A stretch of DNA of 64,000 bases, taken from the IMG/VR virus record IMGVR_UViG_3300031623_001144, positions 1 to 64,000 of that record; one strand, given 5' to 3'. Shown one piece after another: positions 10,302 to 47,225 of this stretch. The translations under genes were made by a program, and so were the position numbers. The stretch comes from a virus. How positions within the stretch are numbered: position 1 is the stretch's first letter; each line of letters opens with the position of its first letter. The notes under the pieces are model-generated. The model was not told the origin of the DNA. It ran no database searches and was given only the letters and a program-made list of their open reading frames with translations.

Positions 10302-10990
10302 TATTCCTCAAGTTTTTCAATGATATTTGCTACGAGTGGATGTCTGACAATAGAATTTGCCTTAAATTGAACAACACCTACACCCGGCACGTCTTTGAGA
10401 CGATTCATCACATTAGTCAAAGCAACATCACCGCCGCCTAAATCGCTTTGAGTTGGATCTCCAGTGATAATGACTTTGCTGTTTTCTCCGAATCTTGTAA
10501 GAAACAATTTAAGCTGCATCATTGATGCGTTTTGTGCTTCATCAAAAATACAAACAGCGTCATCAAATGTTCGACCTCTCATATAAGCAATTGGAGCAAC
10601 TTCAACAGCTTTATCAACCTTGTCTCTCCAAACATTATTGTCATCAGGATGACCCACAAGTTTATCTATGCAGTCATACATTGGTAACATGTATGGATAA
10701 ACCTTGTTTTCAAACTCTCCGGGAAGAAAACCAAGAGACTCTCCAGATTCTACAATAGGTCTGGTTATCACAATCTTCTTTGACTCTTTTTGTAGAATTC
10801 TCTCTATAGCAAAAGCACATGCAAGAAAACTTTTTCCTGTACCTGCTGGTCCTATTAGAAATAATACGCTGTGCTGCTGAAAAGCGGCCCACGCCATACT
10901 TTGGGCATCATTCTTAAATTCAATGTGGAAATTCCCACCAGTCTTTGTATTTCTCTTCTTGCCACCTATGTTCTTAGCCGTTCGTGCCAT
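10301..10990 (-). CDS. phoH: PhoH-like ATPase
   Basis: PhoH-family proteins are P-loop ATPases common in phages; some show RNA helicase or ribonuclease-associated activity, but their phage role is unsettled. The 229-residue protein has Walker A GPAGTGKS at about 47-54, Walker B with DEAQN (CIFDEAQN) at about 147-154, the family segment TRPIVESGESLGFLPG, and sensor region VIITGDPTQSDL. A basic N-terminal extension (KNIGGKKRNTK) precedes the domain. A strong terminator lies 57 bases upstream of the start, so the gene likely begins a new transcript running into the giant virion gene. Confidence 0.93.
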   Translation of the reverse strand: MARTAKNIGGKKRNTKTGGNFHIEFKNDAQSMAWAAFQQHSVLFLIGPAGTGKSFLACAFAIERILQKESKKIVITRPIVESGESLGFLPGEFENKVYPYMLPMYDCIDKLVGHPDDNNVWRDKVDKAVEVAPIAYMRGRTFDDAVCIFDEAQNASMMQLKLFLTRFGENSKVIITGDPTQSDLGGGDVALTNVMNRLKDVPGVGVVQFKANSIVRHPLVANIIEKLEE

Positions 10991-11046
10991 AAATTCTCTC
11001 CTTCAAAACAAGTTATCTTTATTTATGAGAGGAAACATAGAATAAA

Positions 11047-11079
11047 AAATACCTGTTGCAACTTTTGCAACAGGTATTT
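11047..11079 (-). terminator. Rho-independent terminator upstream of phoH
   Basis: A 15-base perfect inverted repeat (AAATACCTGTTGCAA) around a three-base loop is followed on the minus strand by a run of T. It would stop minus-strand transcripts coming from 11.1-11.5 kb before phoH. Something in the preceding gap is therefore probably transcribed. Confidence 0.8.
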
Positions 11080-11549
11080 CAGACTTCCACAAATTGTTTT
11101 TCAAACCCGACACAACACTCGTCAAGCGACCTCCCAAAAGATAAATGTTGTGCTTAATAATCAAGTTAGCCACGTTATCCGATACGATTCCAGACTGGTT
11201 TAGTAATTTTATGTTGTGACTTACATAAAACTCTACGTTTCGGTAACTTTTCCTCCTCCAAACTTGATTTGTCAATGGTTATCTTAAATACAAGCAAATT
11301 GTACAAGGTATCTCCTTGCAAGAGGACGTTTTAACGGGCAGACGTTCAACCGGCCATTTTTTATGCGAACAAGGGATAAGTTGCTAAACCCAGTGATATT
11401 TTTTGTAATGTGTAGTCACCATGCACCCACTCTTTAACGATGAGTTTATTCGCTATTTTTGAGTCTTTAGATGACCGATTCCAAAGGAATCTTTACTTGT
11501 AGATGTTTCATTATACAGAATAATTTACTTCCTGCAAGATAGATAAGGT
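11080..11549. other. Gap without a clear gene, possible structured RNA or tiny gene
   Basis: No convincing long gene fits between the phoH terminator and the metallopeptidase gene. The minus strand ends in the strong terminator and contains several inverted repeats, such as TTTTATGT/ACATAAAA near 11.21 kb, ACAACA/TGTTGT near 11.13 kb, and CAAGG-AGATA-CCTTG near 11.31 kb. I could not fold it into a tRNA or any RNA class I know. One 43-codon minus-strand frame is listed separately with low confidence. Confidence 0.4.
11175..11306 (-). CDS. Possible 43-aa peptide with SD in a hairpin
   Basis: A TTG at 11306 follows AAGGAG at good spacing and opens a 43-codon frame, MYNLLVFKITIDKSSLEEEK and onward, very rich in Lys and Arg. 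The Shine-Dalgarno lies inside the small hairpin CAAGG-AGATA-CCTTG, which could limit translation. The terminator at 11047 would end its transcript. No homology is recognisable, so it may be chance. Confidence 0.25.
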   Translation of the reverse strand: MYNLLVFKITIDKSSLEEEKLPKRRVLCKSQHKITKPVWNRIG

Positions 11550-11999
11550 ATGATGGGTTCATTCAAACAATTTATGGAAGATGAGATGGACGGCGAAAAA
11601 GCTGACATCGCCAATACACTTGAAAAACTTCCAGACAGCCACGCAGCACTTGTGCAAGGATACAACTGGAAATTTCATGCCGGAAACACTCTTAATGGGG
11701 ACGAGGAGCATGTTGGCTACATGGATGATCATGAAAAAGAGATTGCCATAGCTGCTCCATACAATTATGGACGAGAGTTTACAGTTCTACATGAAATTGC
11801 CCATCGTGTGTTGGAAAAGTTCGTTACACCAGAACACAAACAGATGTGGATGCAAATCGTACAGAACACACCAGAGAAACAAGATCAAAATGCCGAAGAA
11901 CTGTTCTGTATGGCCTACGCCAATCACTACGCCAAGAATAAAATCGTCATTCACGATCATCCTCAATGGCATCAATTCATAGAGAACTTGCCGAAATGA
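11550..11999 (+). CDS. Zinc metallopeptidase-like protein with capsid-targeting-like N-terminus
   Basis: The N-terminus MMGSFKQFMEDEM carries the shared F-K-x-F-M-x-x-E motif. The central region holds a gluzincin signature, LHEIAHRVLEKF at about 88-99, with the two zinc-binding His and the catalytic Glu of HExxH. The downstream acidic stretch AEELFCMAYANHY at about 116-128 is a good candidate for the third ligand. If the tag works as in T4, this would be a peptidase packaged in the head and delivered to the host with the DNA; that is inference. The upstream region has an ATTATACAG box at about 11510 and AAGG before the start. Confidence 0.75.
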   Translation: MMGSFKQFMEDEMDGEKADIANTLEKLPDSHAALVQGYNWKFHAGNTLNGDEEHVGYMDDHEKEIAIAAPYNYGREFTVLHEIAHRVLEKFVTPEHKQMWMQIVQNTPEKQDQNAEELFCMAYANHYAKNKIVIHDHPQWHQFIENLPK

Positions 12000-12084
12000 G
12001 CCAACTCAATCATAAACAATTTTTGGATCAGGACAATAATTCAGAATCGGGCACATGAAACAGTTGTTTAATAAAGGTCTGAGA

Positions 12085-12822
12085 TCATTTAGACTGCTGA
12101 GTCTCTTGCATCAACCTTGCAACAATTCCCATAGCTTTCTCGCTCATCTTTTCAAAATCGCTAGGGTCCATGCTGAACTGTCTGTAATGATGAACAATAT
12201 TGTTTCTTGTAGCTTGAGGCTTGTGTCCTTTTAACTGCGCTCTCAATGTCATAATAAATGACATGCCAACAATTGGAAGCTCTTCCGGCCACGGTCCAAT
12301 ATCATTCCAGCACTCTCTTGTCACCAACATGCACCATTCTTGAATAAAATCAACCTTCTGCTTTTGAATGTAATAGTGCTGCATGGAAGTTCCAACAACG
12401 CCACTTCCTTGAGATTCAGAGATGTTTACAAGAACGTCAATCCAAGCTGGATCAATTACAACTGTATCGGCATGTAAGAATATGAAATACCTTGAATTTG
12501 GGTCAGATACGCCAACACCTTGATTGCACGCTTCAGACCAAAATTTGTTTTCTTTATTTCTTACAACTTTGATTCCTTCTTCTTGAAGTACATCAAGAAA
12601 CTCTTGTGTCTCTTGCCCAGAGTTATTGTCTACTACAATCACCTCATAGTTGTTTAAGTGACTGCAAACATGAATCGATTGCAAGCAAATATTCAAATAC
12701 TCTGGTCTGTCATGATGAATCACCACAATAGAAACCTGTTCTGTGCTTCCATCATGAAGATCAATTGTCATCTCTGGTGGCCCATCTGGGCTCTCTAGCG
12801 GGTTGTGCGGTTGCTGGTTCAT
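12085..12822 (-). CDS. Family 2 glycosyltransferase
   Basis: GT-A fold enzymes of this family move a sugar from a nucleotide donor. Visible parts: nucleotide-binding start VSIVVIHHDRPEYLNICLQS at about 33-52, VIVVDNNSG, and the DxD-like metal site in FLHADTVV. The C-terminal segment after ECWNDIGPWPEE resembles the acceptor part of rhamnosyl/GlcNAc transferases. I chose the ATG at 12822, eight bases after AAAGGAG; a GTG at 12831 and ATG at 12828 are too close to it. It is divergent from two tiny plus-strand genes. Substrate unknown. Confidence 0.85.
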   Translation of the reverse strand: MNQQPHNPLESPDGPPEMTIDLHDGSTEQVSIVVIHHDRPEYLNICLQSIHVCSHLNNYEVIVVDNNSGQETQEFLDVLQEEGIKVVRNKENKFWSEACNQGVGVSDPNSRYFIFLHADTVVIDPAWIDVLVNISESQGSGVVGTSMQHYYIQKQKVDFIQEWCMLVTRECWNDIGPWPEELPIVGMSFIMTLRAQLKGHKPQATRNNIVHHYRQFSMDPSDFEKMSEKAMGIVARLMQETQQSK

Positions 12823-12870
12823 AAACATCACTCCTTTTAGGATATTACAGTAATTAAGGATACATATTTC

Positions 12871-13035
12871 ATGCTCTTGATATTTAACAACAATTTAGAC
12901 TTGCCAGAAACCAAATACATTGAAGCTGGCAGTGACATAAAGAAACGAGACTACAGTTTGTCTTTAGTGGTTACTTCCATTGGCGGATCAGCAACGAATG
13001 TCGTAGGATCAATCGGATGGAATGAGGTTTACTAA
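12871..13035 (+). CDS. Hypothetical 54-aa protein
   Basis: ATG at 12871 with AAGGA nine bases upstream; the stop overlaps the next ATG (TAATG), so the two genes are coupled. The protein MLLIFNNNLDLPETKYIEAG is followed by a beta-rich Ser/Val segment (SLSLVVTSIGGSATNVVGS). No motif recognised. Both frames sit in an otherwise empty gap, which supports them as real. Confidence 0.55.
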   Translation: MLLIFNNNLDLPETKYIEAGSDIKKRDYSLSLVVTSIGGSATNVVGSIGWNEVY

Positions 13036-13193
13036 TGACAGAAGAAATTCAAGCGCAAGGATTCATGGACATCTTTAAGTTGGCCGACAAGGATCTCATT
13101 GATAAAATCCTAGCCCTCTCAAAGTGCGTTAAGATTGAGCATCCTTCAGAGGGTGTCACACGAATCATTATTGACTTTGTGGATCAGAAGTAG
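13035..13193 (+). CDS. Hypothetical 52-aa protein
   Basis: Starts inside the stop of the upstream gene (TAATG at 13033-13037). The sequence MTEEIQAQGFMDIFKLADKD leads into a short helix and a beta strand (RIIIDFVDQK). It is acidic and soluble, with no known family. Its 3' end overlaps the convergent minus-strand gene by 26 bases. Confidence 0.55.
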   Translation: MTEEIQAQGFMDIFKLADKDLIDKILALSKCVKIEHPSEGVTRIIIDFVDQK

Positions 13194-13407
13194 GCTCTTT
13201 AGGCTCTTCAGTCTCTACTTCTACATCTTCAAGTATTCCATATTCGATAACGCAATCAACCTCTCCAACTTTTTCTGTTCGTGGAAGATCATTATCAAAC
13301 AAATACTTGCGCAAGCTATTTGGGCTGGTAGTTGCCTTTATGACGTTGATAAAGACAAACTCGCCCTCTACTTGTCGAGCCACTTTTGTTAGAAGTGATA
13401 TTTTCAT
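13168..13407 (-). CDS. Hypothetical protein (79 aa)
   Basis: ATG at 13407, overlapping the upstream stop by four bases (ATGA). The first 60 residues look like a small alpha/beta domain; the C-terminus is a loose acidic tail (VEVETEEPKEPTSDP). It is last of four tightly coupled genes running from 14477. No family recognised. Confidence 0.6.
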   Translation of the reverse strand: MKISLLTKVARQVEGEFVFINVIKATTSPNSLRKYLFDNDLPRTEKVGEVDCVIEYGILEDVEVETEEPKEPTSDPQSQ

Positions 13408-13748
13408 TCAATCTCCATGGACTCGATTTTTTCGATCCATACATTTGCCACTGCAACATTTGCACCGACAGTAACAATTTCTCTTCCACCATTTAGAATT
13501 GTGAAAGTGAGTGGCCCACCGGTAATTCTTCCCGGTCCATTTGTTATCACAATTCCCTTGTCGGCCAATTCTTGAACAGCAGAGAAGCACAAGCAATATC
13601 CTTCTTCTACCTCAACCTCAACTCCAGAGTGAACTGTTGCCACATATCGACTTGGCATCCCCACACTGTCTTGTTGACTGTCTTGAATTGATTGAACGCT
13701 AACTACCCCATTAACGATCTCGCCCTGTGTTACCTTAACTTTCGCCAT
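13404..13748 (-). CDS. dUTPase-like fold protein lacking catalytic residues
   Basis: The pattern GVEVEVEEGYCLCFSAVQEL, ADKGIVITNGPGRI, then a beta stretch LTFTILNGG and G-x-x-VAVANVW follows the strand order and Gly positions of trimeric dUTPase-type proteins. The catalytic Asp and Tyr of motif 3 and the Ser-rich motif 2 are absent, so hydrolysis is unlikely. A small structural trimer is one possibility. The resemblance is read by eye and needs a structure search. Start ATG at 13748 overlaps the upstream gene. Confidence 0.4.
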   Translation of the reverse strand: MAKVKVTQGEIVNGVVSVQSIQDSQQDSVGMPSRYVATVHSGVEVEVEEGYCLCFSAVQELADKGIVITNGPGRITGGPLTFTILNGGREIVTVGANVAVANVWIEKIESMEIE

Positions 13749-43355: not shown

Positions 43356-46300
43356 TTACACCAATTCAAACTGCATATCGTCTAAATCAATGGTTTTGTC
43401 CTCTGATCTCTCAGGTAATTTCATCGGCCTGATTCGATGATCTTCTTCTTTAGGAGGCAAATGTCTTCTTTTATGCTTTGGAACAGAATCAAATGTAAGA
43501 GTGTTAAATCCACCAGAAGGTGGTCTCACACGTATCTTAATCATGTTTCCTTGAGCGATTTCATCATGCCAACGAATATAATCATCCATCCAAAAGTTCA
43601 TTTTCATTACACGTGCATTAGCATCTTCAAGTTCAATTGTTTTGAACTCCACATCATTCTTGCTAACACGATGCTTTATGGATTTAACCTTAACCTCAAC
43701 CATACCGGCAGTGTTTCCAGCGACCTCACACTCTGCAAAGAAAACATCAAATGTTCTTCCAGAGAAATCTGGACTGGTTTCTAACTCATGAGTCCATTGA
43801 AAACCATAATACGATCCTTCTGCCATGGGATAAGTGATATTACCATCAAGCTCCATGTCATTCTTCAAAATCTTCTCTTCTTCTTCGTCCAATTTGATTG
43901 ACGCTGGATTAAATTGATCCAAAGTAATTGGGTTATCTGTGTCTTCAGTTTCTTTCTCATGGAAATTCCGAAGACTGATGCCCCGTCTTTTAGACAAACC
44001 TTGAAGTATGCTTAATACAGTAACATCTTTGGTTTTCGTTTCTCCCTTGGTCTTGTATTCAACTTCTGTGATCGTGTCATAAAATCGTTCTTCCCATTTC
44101 TTCTCAGCATCTTCTGTATAATCGCTCATTAACTCAAGGTCTGGATCACTCTCTGGAACGTGATCTAACAAAACCGCTTTTAGCTCTTCGAGCTTTTTAT
44201 CCATGGCTTGTTCAAATCTCTTTTTTCGTTCACGCCTCTTCTTGTCTGAGTCCTTAAAGAACTCAGAGAACTTCCGCAAAGTCACTCGATCATATCCCTC
44301 ATCAAAAACACCCAAGGCAGTCAAGGCTTTTATTGCGGTGGCATCTGTGCCAAACTTGTTCAAGAAGTCAGTGAAGTTGTCGTAAGGCTGTTCCTCAACA
44401 ATTCGCTGAGCCACAGCTTCTCCCAGACCTTTGATGTTTTGAAACCCGAAGTAAATTTCATTATCATCTATATGAAAATTTTCACGAGATCGGTTAATGT
44501 GAACAGGACATATATTCACGTCATGCTTCTCTGCATCGAGCTTGTACTCTCGAAACTTCTCATCATCTTTCTCACACATCAAAATTGCTGTGTAAAACTC
44601 AATGGGATAATGAGACTTCAACCACAGCAAACGAGATGAGATGTAAGTGTAAGCATAACTGTGACTATTGCTTGTTACAATGCCATTTGGTAAGAGAAAA
44701 TTGTGGGTAGGATTGGTGACTTCAAGATCACACATTTGTCTTTTGCCCACGTAACGGACTCCCACAACCCTCCGAGACACCAAACCCCCGGTGTTGGTGA
44801 TCGGAGCATGTCCTGAAACAACTCGTACCACTCCTCCTGCATCGCTCCTGAACTGCTCTTGAAACATGTCATGTCGATCCGAAGCAACATCACATCTCCT
44901 CGACGTATCGCCTCGTCCCTCAACATTTCGTCCCGTTGTTGGACAATATGCAGCTTCCCTTCTCTGTTCTTGCAAGCTGGATTGAAGAAATGATAAAATC
45001 CGTCCACCTCGATCCAAATTTTGTCTTTCACAAAATCGACCTGTTTTCTCTCTTCTCCACATCGAATTTGTTTCATGTCCCATCCTATCTCTTGACGAAG
45101 CCATGCCTCCATTCGAGATCGTTTCGGACTTCTCCAAGCTGCTTCTGTGCATTTCGCAAACTTCTCGGGATTCTCTTCCCGCCACTTCTTCAATTGTGCA
45201 GCACGTTGAGCTTGAATCTCTGGACGAGCCGAAGTCTTCTTGGCTGTCTCGGAAAATATCTTCCTGCGATCTGGATGTTCGTTGTCTTTGTTCAACTTCT
45301 CCATCTTGAGACGTATATTTTCTTTCTTGATCGCCTCGCACTTCGTACATTCCTTGAAGTGACTCTCCCGCAACCTCCAAGTCTTGAACTCCATTCCGCA
45401 ACGTGCTTTGTGAACTACATTGCCCCAACCCAACTTCTGACACTCCGAACATTCTTTGTGATGTTTGGTCATCAACTTCTTGGTTCTCTCCACTTTCCCA
45501 CATCTGGTCTTCCAACCACTCTTCTTCGCATTTGACATAATTCTCTCCTATATGTTTATCAACACATACAGAAGAGTGTGTTCTGCAAATTTCTCGAAGT
45601 GGCATTTGTCCTTTTTCTGTAAGAAACTTATGATCAGCAGAACAAGTCACTTGATAGCCATCATCAAATTCCACTTCAAAAGCATCTAAAACCCCATGGT
45701 CGTGTACTGCAACCACTTCTGTCTCAACAGTATTTCCGTCTTCATTAACGCAAAATACTGTTTCTCCGGGTTCGAATTCGCATATTGGCTTCTCACCACC
45801 GGGATAAATAACCAGTGTGCTCTTGTCAACCGATTTGTTGAAACCGTACTCGGCGAAGCTTTCTATTTGCGCCCACAAGTTAGTGACAAAATCCTCATTG
45901 ACTCTAAGATTTTGTTTCCCGTTCTCAACAAACATTTCTTTGTATTTGATGAACCCTTTGACATTCTTCTTTGAGATAGCTTTTCTAACTTTCTCTGTGT
46001 GCATGTCAGGAATACTGCCTACAACTCTAAGAATGTCCATGACCTGTTCTTGATATGCCATGACACCATATGTCTTACCCAGAATGCTCTGCATCAAAGG
46101 ATGAATGTTGTAAGACTCTTCTCCTTGCTTTCTTTTACAATACCGAGCATCCATGCCCATTCCCAATGGACCGGGACGGTAGAGAGCAGAGTAAGCCGCC
46201 ATATCATCGAAGCAATCTACCCCGCCACGTTTGACCAACTTGCGAATGCCTTCGCTATCAAACTGAAAGATGCACTTAAGGTCTGCTTTATTTGCCATAT

Positions 46301-47225
46301 TGAGAGAAGCAGGGTCATTCAAGTATTCAATATCTGACCAATCCCAGCTTCCGGGTAAAGCACAAATCTTCTCTACGCCATGACGTTCTTTAATCAGATG
46401 ACACGCAATGGCAATCTGCATCAAGTTGTTAATGACAAGAAGGTCAAACTTAATGAGGCCCACAGGTTGAAGGTCTTGTGCAGCCAACCCTTCTGTCCAA
46501 GCAGAGCAGATGACTCCGTGGGGATTTGCTTTGTTAACCGACCGTACTTCCATTGGAACAAAGTCTCCAATGGGCTGATCTGAAATAATCAATCCACCAG
46601 CATGAACACCACCCGATTTATTTCTCCCCTGCATTAAATTGGCAGCACTAGAAACATCTTCATGCGCCTCACAGTACGCCCTAAATTCAGGATACATTTC
46701 AAGAGCTTTGTCCCACTCTAAAACTTTTCCCTCATCATCTTTATCTTCCATCTTAACAGTGATGCCCTGAATTTCTGTTTTGGAAAGTCCATGCACTCCT
46801 GTCATATCCAGCATGGCTGATTTGATGCCTGCTGTTCCATAAGTTCCAATCTCGCAGATGTTCTCTTGCCCGAACTTCTCTGCGGCCCACTCACGTTTAA
46901 GATAATCTCGCACCGGCTTAAGATAATCGATATCGATATCTGGGAACTCGCCTTGTACGGATGCGCTCTCCTTATTTACATCAAACTCATCTGACAAGCC
47001 CAGCAAAAAATCGATCAGATTATTGTGTTCGTTACAAGAGAACTTTACTTTTCTGTCATAAAGATCAAGAAAATATTCATGTTCAGCCTGCGCATCAACT
47101 TCTTTGATCTCTTTCTTCAAACGACTCATATACTGGTCTTCTTTGCCAAGACCTTTATCATTCAGAGAATGTAGACATAGCCTCAAAAGCCTTTCACGTT
47201 CCTTCATGCGACTCTCCTTAGTCAA
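43356..47225 (-). CDS. dnaE: DNA polymerase III alpha subunit, C-terminal half, with intein
   Basis: This is the catalytic half of a DnaE-type polymerase split from its N-terminal part (gene 56225-57613). It begins with about 95 less-conserved residues, then FPDIDIDYLK at 94-103 with the catalytic Asp pair, AYSALYRPGPLG, and the fingers phrase EYGFNK at 459-464. That phrase is interrupted by a 389-residue intein (465-853) and resumes as SHSYAYTYISSRL at 854-866, completing FNK-SHSYAY. The thumb and C-terminal part follow (helix-hairpin-helix near IKGLGEAVAQRI). Without the intein the protein is 900 residues. Confidence 0.88.
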   Translation of the reverse strand: MTKESRMKERERLLRLCLHSLNDKGLGKEDQYMSRLKKEIKEVDAQAEHEYFLDLYDRKVKFSCNEHNNLIDFLLGLSDEFDVNKESASVQGEFPDIDIDYLKPVRDYLKREWAAEKFGQENICEIGTYGTAGIKSAMLDMTGVHGLSKTEIQGITVKMEDKDDEGKVLEWDKALEMYPEFRAYCEAHEDVSSAANLMQGRNKSGGVHAGGLIISDQPIGDFVPMEVRSVNKANPHGVICSAWTEGLAAQDLQPVGLIKFDLLVINNLMQIAIACHLIKERHGVEKICALPGSWDWSDIEYLNDPASLNMANKADLKCIFQFDSEGIRKLVKRGGVDCFDDMAAYSALYRPGPLGMGMDARYCKRKQGEESYNIHPLMQSILGKTYGVMAYQEQVMDILRVVGSIPDMHTEKVRKAISKKNVKGFIKYKEMFVENGKQNLRVNEDFVTNLWAQIESFAEYGFNKSVDKSTLVIYPGGEKPICEFEPGETVFCVNEDGNTVETEVVAVHDHGVLDAFEVEFDDGYQVTCSADHKFLTEKGQMPLREICRTHSSVCVDKHIGENYVKCEEEWLEDQMWESGENQEVDDQTSQRMFGVSEVGLGQCSSQSTLRNGVQDLEVAGESLQGMYEVRGDQERKYTSQDGEVEQRQRTSRSQEDIFRDSQEDFGSSRDSSSTCCTIEEVAGRESREVCEMHRSSLEKSETISNGGMASSRDRMGHETNSMWRREKTGRFCERQNLDRGGRILSFLQSSLQEQRREAAYCPTTGRNVEGRGDTSRRCDVASDRHDMFQEQFRSDAGGVVRVVSGHAPITNTGGLVSRRVVGVRYVGKRQMCDLEVTNPTHNFLLPNGIVTSNSHSYAYTYISSRLLWLKSHYPIEFYTAILMCEKDDEKFREYKLDAEKHDVNICPVHINRSRENFHIDDNEIYFGFQNIKGLGEAVAQRIVEEQPYDNFTDFLNKFGTDATAIKALTALGVFDEGYDRVTLRKFSEFFKDSDKKRRERKKRFEQAMDKKLEELKAVLLDHVPESDPDLELMSDYTEDAEKKWEERFYDTITEVEYKTKGETKTKDVTVLSILQGLSKRRGISLRNFHEKETEDTDNPITLDQFNPASIKLDEEEEKILKNDMELDGNITYPMAEGSYYGFQWTHELETSPDFSGRTFDVFFAECEVAGNTAGMVEVKVKSIKHRVSKNDVEFKTIELEDANARVMKMNFWMDDYIRWHDEIAQGNMIKIRVRPPSGGFNTLTFDSVPKHKRRHLPPKEEDHRIRPMKLPERSEDKTIDLDDMQFELV
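44667..45833 (-). other. Intein in DnaE, Ser1-type, with HEG inserted out of frame
   Basis: Codons 465-853 of the polymerase reading frame. The intein starts at Ser1 (SVDKSTLVIYPG), with block A/N2 and block B (VEFDDGYQVTCSADHKFLTE). It ends with block F/G, VTNPTHNFLLPNGIVTSN, followed by Ser+1. Extein residues join as FNK/SHSYAY. Between residues about 100 and 340 of the intein the polymerase-frame translation is Ser/Arg/Gln/Glu-rich and unlike a folded protein. A complete endonuclease gene fills this stretch in another frame. Confidence 0.85.
44675..45538 (-). CDS. Homing endonuclease nested in the intein in another frame (zinc fingers plus Vsr-like nuclease)
   Basis: A 287-codon frame runs within the intein, shifted one base from the polymerase frame. 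Its own AGGAGAG Shine-Dalgarno ends six bases before the ATG. Two zinc fingers of identical spacing, C-x12-H-x3-C-x2-C, lie at 13-33 and 47-67. The nuclease core has Glu144, Asp168 (KQVDF), IEVDGFYHF at 176-184 with Glu177, Asp179 and His183, and QRDEMLRDEAIRRG at 201-214 with Asp203. This is the E-D-x-H-D pattern of Vsr-like homing nucleases, with a final strand VMLLRID. The last 40 residues overlap the intein's block F and are less convincing. Confidence 0.82.
   Translation of the reverse strand: MSNAKKSGWKTRCGKVERTKKLMTKHHKECSECQKLGWGNVVHKARCGMEFKTWRLRESHFKECTKCEAIKKENIRLKMEKLNKDNEHPDRRKIFSETAKKTSARPEIQAQRAAQLKKWREENPEKFAKCTEAAWRSPKRSRMEAWLRQEIGWDMKQIRCGEERKQVDFVKDKIWIEVDGFYHFFNPACKNREGKLHIVQQRDEMLRDEAIRRGDVMLLRIDMTCFKSSSGAMQEEWYELFQDMLRSPTPGVWCLGGLWESVTWAKDKCVILKSPILPTIFSYQMAL

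Follow-up and report, generated by a model that had tools for sequence, protein, structure and literature searches.

Fractured genes, in which a free-standing EDxHD endonuclease lies between the splicing halves of a split intein, were reportedly described by Dassa et al. in 2009. In canonical inteins the endonuclease is translated in frame and fused to the intein (PMC3943268, PMC7765530), and a review of these elements distinguishes full-length, mini and split inteins only (PMC7765530). An out-of-frame HNH nuclease is known from the ShiLan domain (2025), an insert that adds no stop to its host open reading frame (ORF); its authors found neither a splicing domain nor a ribosome-binding site and proposed that the protein retains the insert (PMC11855218). 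For overlapping frames, the same paper cites a preprint by Gosselin et al. (2025, bioRxiv 10.1101/2025.01.02.630785) on non-canonical actinophage inteins, whose title and citing context suggest an unusual architecture with overlapping frames. Finally, in the engineered STALEMATE system an intein-containing meganuclease is entangled with an ORF in the +2 frame, and buffering against mutational inactivation was reported for it (PMC12455656).

Here, we analyzed a window of 64,000 nucleotides from a viral record (IMG/VR IMGVR_UViG_3300031623_001144, positions 1 to 64,000), in which a DNA polymerase III alpha gene contains an intein and the intein contains a homing endonuclease gene in a different reading frame. 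The element is very probably a dual-coded mobile intein. It resembles the fractured genes of Dassa et al. in nuclease type, in the position of the nuclease between N- and C-terminal splicing halves and in having gp41-1 among the closest relatives of its intein. Unlike these genes, in which the host is in two pieces and trans-splices, it occupies a continuous dual-coding frame. As in bifunctional inteins such as PI-SceI/VMA, a splicing element has a homing endonuclease of its own placed between blocks B and F, but the nuclease is out of frame instead of being fused in frame. STALEMATE likewise places a homing nuclease/intein construct in a frame that overlaps that of a second protein; in contrast to that synthetic design, the window element occurs in nature and has been conserved among deeply divergent loci. 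The ShiLan insert, which also hides a homing nuclease in another frame of a stop-free insert, comes closest as a precedent. Whereas ShiLan has an HNH nuclease, no splicing domain and no ribosome-binding site, the window element encodes an EDxHD nuclease preceded by a Shine-Dalgarno sequence and surrounded, with partial overlap, by a complete intein. A first-pass annotation of the window had stated that no case of this arrangement was described; this has to be narrowed, since an out-of-frame nuclease in an open host frame is published, although in an insert that lacks a splicing domain. The nested nuclease is not of the family treated in the Gosselin preprint, because its family has no match among INPHARED phages; priority for the principle of an out-of-frame nuclease within an intein is uncertain, as it could already be described in that preprint.

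Table 1. Features of the polymerase gene, its intein and the nested nuclease gene (positions in the window).
Feature	Position	Strand	Remarks
Host gene, DNA polymerase III alpha (DnaE-like)	43356..47225	-	domain and phrog matches; intein within
Intein, 389 aa, Ser1 to Asn389, +1 Ser	44667..45833	-	profile, AlphaFold and Foldseek
N-terminal splicing half, blocks A and B, invariant block-B His68	45549..45833	-	pLDDT >90
C-terminal splicing half, blocks F and G, DLEV..P.HNFLLPNG..TSN	44667..44786	-	pLDDT ~90-96
Intein-frame linker, ~254 residues, Ser/Arg/Glu/Gln/Gly-rich	44787..45548	-	predicted disordered, pLDDT ~35
Shine-Dalgarno AGGAGAG of the nuclease gene, within intein coding sequence	45543..45549	-	duplex -7.3 kcal/mol
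Nested homing endonuclease gene, 287 aa	44675..45538	-	one base off intein register
Zinc-finger-like motif 1, C-x12-H-x3-C-x2-C, nuclease residues 13-33	45440..45502	-	
Zinc-finger-like motif 2, same spacing as motif 1, nuclease residues 47-67	45338..45400	-	
Vsr-like EDxHD catalytic core, nuclease residues 141-221	44876..45118	-	family conservation

The polymerase ORF runs through 1289 codons without interruption, and its product matched PF07733 (5e-23), PF17657 (7e-39), HHH_6 (3e-16), Intein_splicing (1.3e-5) and phrog_405 (3.5e-131). The mechanically called ORF starts at a TTG; an ATG seven codons downstream coincides with the start of the relative L005 and is probably the start of the polymerase. 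The intein had been delimited exactly in the first-pass annotation. It is inserted at the DnaE motif GFNK^SH and bounded by the junctions FNK^S...TSN^SHSYAY. Its splicing domain is of the DnaE/gp41-1 type, with the two halves about 760 bp apart, and matched profiles of the Npu/Ssp DnaE and gp41-1 inteins. The AlphaFold model of all 389 residues resembled DnaE, DnaB, RecA and gp41-1 inteins, including Npu/Ssp DnaE (Foldseek probability 1.00), and has the HINT fold; both halves are well folded in it, with the ~230-254 residues between them at pLDDT ~35. The residues of class 1 (DnaE-type) inteins (Ser/Thr/Cys1, H68, D369-L370-E371-V372, H377-N378, S388-N389 and +1 Ser) are conserved in 18 sequences. 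Two features count against a dual-coded intein, namely the long linker between the splicing halves and the presence of Thr as residue 1 in 7/17 nested loci, Thr being an unusual residue for the splicing reaction's first acyl shift. The inteins with Thr1 are those of L002, L015, L034, L035, L038, L046 and L051, all in DnaE.

The first-pass annotation had also described, within the intein, a 287-codon frame shifted by one base that encodes two zinc fingers of identical spacing and a complete Vsr-like core, carries its own AGGAGAG and overlaps splicing motif F at its end; each of these features was recovered. The register of the nuclease is one base off that of the intein in 18/18 loci, so that the element departs from a canonical bifunctional intein, where both share one frame. 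Motif 1 (C13-x12-H26-x3-C30-x2-C33) has all four of its ligand-like positions, C13, H26, C30 and C33, nearly invariant in the nuclease family, and in motif 2 (C47-x12-H60-x3-C64-x2-C67) H60 is invariant and C47, C64 and C67 are nearly so. The core comprises E144-D168-E177/D179-H183-D203; across 30 nested and split homologues, D168, E177, D179, G180, H183, F184 and R220 are invariant, and E144 and D203 nearly invariant. Because the nuclease profile matched no sequence in the PDB, we turned to fold comparison. The AlphaFold model of the nuclease (mean pLDDT 90.9) matched the Vsr structures 1vsr (Foldseek probability 0.98) and 1cw0 (0.93), with weak E-values (0.01-1.1), while the EDxHD homing endonuclease I-Bth0305I (3r3p) was a weak, low-ranked match (probability 0.15). 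The homologues matched DUF559 (10/30), Vsr (1/30) and homing-endonuclease families. Both its catalytic residues and its predicted fold identify the protein as a putative EDxHD (Vsr-like) nuclease.

The AGGAGAG sits 4 bases 5' of the nuclease ATG. Across 17 loci, the best Shine-Dalgarno sequence at the nuclease start averaged -7.6 kcal/mol, compared with -4.0 +/- 0.5 for matched background starts, and 0/20000 background draws were as low as the family mean. The exception is L002, which has only a weak sequence (-1.5), and this counts against the dual-coded reading. The nuclease could instead be part of a polymerase-intein-nuclease fusion, and no free protein, if ribosomes left the frame of the N-terminal intein half by programmed frameshifting; a shift would have room to occur because the nuclease frame opens slightly 5' of its start codon. 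This is very unlikely in view of the initiation signals, which are far stronger than background across the family, and of the window and L001, where the frame opens just 9 bases upstream of an ATG with a strong Shine-Dalgarno sequence.

Searches of IMG/VR and GTDB genomes, in which most loci were metagenome assemblies, revealed the dual-frame architecture in 18 non-redundant loci, comprising the window, 14 viral contigs and three bacterial dnaE genes (L001, L002, L015, L016 (=L017), L018, L019 (~L020), L021 (~L022), L034, L035, L037, L038, L046, L048, L049, L050, L051 and L061 in addition to the window). In all 18, the host ORF is free of stops and the frame offset between it and the nuclease is identical. 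The element occurs in at least three host genes: DnaE in most loci, an RNA-polymerase-sigma-like phage gene in L016 and L019 (matching phrog_351 weakly), and, in L021, the gene of a large phage protein that includes a ParB-like stretch; the insertion sites of L049 and L050 are related to that of L021. Intein-less relatives of the polymerase are also found (L006, L007). One contig, IMGVR_UViG_3300037520_002447, carries two divergent nested elements, L018 in DnaE and L021 in the ParB-like gene. Because other host genes were entered within the nested clade and two elements occur on one contig, the element appears to move as a unit. One of the bacterial loci lies on a single contig of 4.28 Mb, the size of a finished chromosome, with a single PF07733 match. 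Since this only dnaE carries the element, the bacterium would have to make its replicative polymerase through the dual-coded frame, which is the strongest indirect evidence for the predicted splicing of the intein. In bacteria the element seems to be rare, as a class-wide survey found it in 1/369 genomes. The nuclease family had no match among the isolate phages of INPHARED, which counts against the dual-coded reading, or among the plasmids of PLSDB. This is also a warning for annotation, as reading the host frame does not reveal the nuclease.

No host-frame stop was present within the nuclease gene in any of 17 tested loci, nor in L061. Synonymous permutation of the nuclease genes predicted 8-19 host-frame stops per locus in these 17 (P < 2e-4 per locus); for the window, 3000 permutations gave a mean of 17.7 polymerase-frame stops and a minimum of 8, against an observed 0. 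Drawing codons from each contig's own usage (10 loci) predicted 8-28 stops, again against 0. The host frame stays open solely because T is never used at the third position of nuclease codons that precede a codon starting with AA, AG or GA (0/1009, compared with 992/2704 in other contexts), while the third frame of the nested loci contains as many stops as expected. The open frame could in principle be due to chance or to sequencing or assembly errors, as metagenome assemblies are the source of most loci. Such an origin is extremely improbable, given the permutation result and 18 divergent loci that share the frame without stops, one of them on the finished-size bacterial chromosome; the same loci exclude the single-base error that the first-pass annotation had named as able to overturn its reading. 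Neither chance nor error is compatible with the results of the permutation, the avoidance of third-position T and the 17 further loci.

The constraint expected in related sequences, on the nuclease frame in the middle and on the intein frame over blocks F/G, was found as the first-pass annotation had predicted. Within the nuclease core, difference rates at codon positions 1/2/3 were 0.46/0.38/0.61, with the third position fastest. Over blocks F/G, where the C-terminal splicing half and the nuclease gene overlap for the last ~37 codons, the rates of the last nuclease codons were 0.07/0.60/0.20, indicating constraint on the intein frame, and host-frame identity of the C-terminal intein was 0.56, where the nuclease proteins alone would predict 0.28. 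The data therefore imply that the middle is selected as nuclease and for lack of stops in the other frame, and the ends as intein. By the sequence comparison, both constraints act together on ~25 codons close to the terminus, and the same DNA segment appears to be selected as two genes simultaneously.

For the linker in the intein frame, no constraint except the lack of stops was detected. Its composition had been called nonsense-like; the richness in Ser, Arg, Glu and Gln was borne out, and the label needed correction, as nuclease codons combined with stop avoidance produce this composition. We also considered that the ~250-residue linker might have a selected function of its own, because host-frame identity in the middle region slightly exceeds what the nuclease proteins would predict (0.186 vs 0.170 +/- 0.002). 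Shared ancestry of synonymous positions accounts for this small excess, however, and hydropathy and hydrophobic fraction of the intein frame in this region are what the nuclease codons predict in most loci. Together with the predicted disorder of the linker and its extensive deletion in L055/L056, where the intein is retained, this leaves a separate linker function with little credibility.

The same nuclease family also occurs between the halves of true split inteins of DnaE, which form a sister clade (L003, L004, L023-L033, L052-L054). L003, L004 and others are thus loci of the type described by Dassa et al. with a nuclease homologous to the nested one. In a nuclease tree with 13 representative split loci (e.g. 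L004, L030, L052), the nested nucleases formed a clade of their own, parted from the split loci by one branch with 100/100 support; the tree is unrooted. Where both halves of a split locus were seen, they share a frame, +1 relative to the nuclease. This fits descent from a continuous ancestor, and a single event is possible. The sister clade also lends some plausibility to a functionally split intein in the window, in which the C-terminal part of the polymerase is produced separately after internal initiation and the frame is continuous only by coincidence, since its DnaE loci have precisely this arrangement with separate halves. We regard this as improbable to a high degree, because the split loci contain 12-30 host-frame stops within the nuclease gene vs 0 in the 17 nested loci, and nothing would maintain such absolute stop avoidance without translation through the element. 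Nor is the host gene of the window broken in two as in a fractured gene. In two further lineages, L055 and L056/L057, the nuclease core was lost by in-frame deletion and the intein frame was kept; remnants of the nuclease C-terminus persist in L055 and L056/L057, and in L056 also of the N-terminus. As judged from these remnants, both are natural mini-inteins derived from dual-coded ones.

For the dual-coded intein, we infer the following sequence of events. The polymerase frame would be translated straight through the whole intein, the splicing halves would fold into a DnaE/gp41-1-type HINT domain with an unstructured linker of ~250 residues between them, and the intein would excise itself by protein splicing in cis, yielding intact polymerase. 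Internal initiation at the Shine-Dalgarno sequence inside the intein would produce the free-standing zinc-finger/EDxHD nuclease as a second product. Cleavage of intein-less alleles at the DnaE site GFNK/SH would then lead to homing, with the whole composite copied into the empty allele. The nuclease would be genetically entangled with an essential gene, because a frameshifting indel in it also breaks the host frame. In-frame inteins are equally protected from frameshifts; the gain from the out-of-frame form would be separate expression of the nuclease, with no need for fusion to the intein.

The arrangement falls outside the full-length, mini and split classes and is conserved across phages and bacteria. 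On balance, we favor the view that dual-coded inteins are a further architecture beside these three, in which splicing and homing functions are held in different frames, move together between unrelated genes and are protected by the host gene from frameshift decay. Such elements may be a stage on the way to fractured genes and split inteins, through acquisition of stops, and to mini-inteins, through deletion of the nuclease. In them, nature would provide an example of a selfish nuclease entangled with an essential host gene, as well as an experiment on the amount of out-of-frame linker that a HINT domain can accommodate.

Among inteins of isolate phages with a similar N-terminal half (12 fetched), the contiguous ones are in frame through the middle and the others lie in fractured genes; none of the readable ones (L073 left out) has a nested out-of-frame nuclease. 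Some hosts of the nested element seem to carry two inteins, because a short distance upstream of it L048 (in DnaE) and L050 (in the third host gene) show what resembles the C-terminal end of another intein (e.g. ...VNGMVIHN^CGKK). In L002, moreover, a neighboring tail-protein-like gene (10785-13535, - strand) has a short insert resembling an intein (HINT) close to its N-terminal end.
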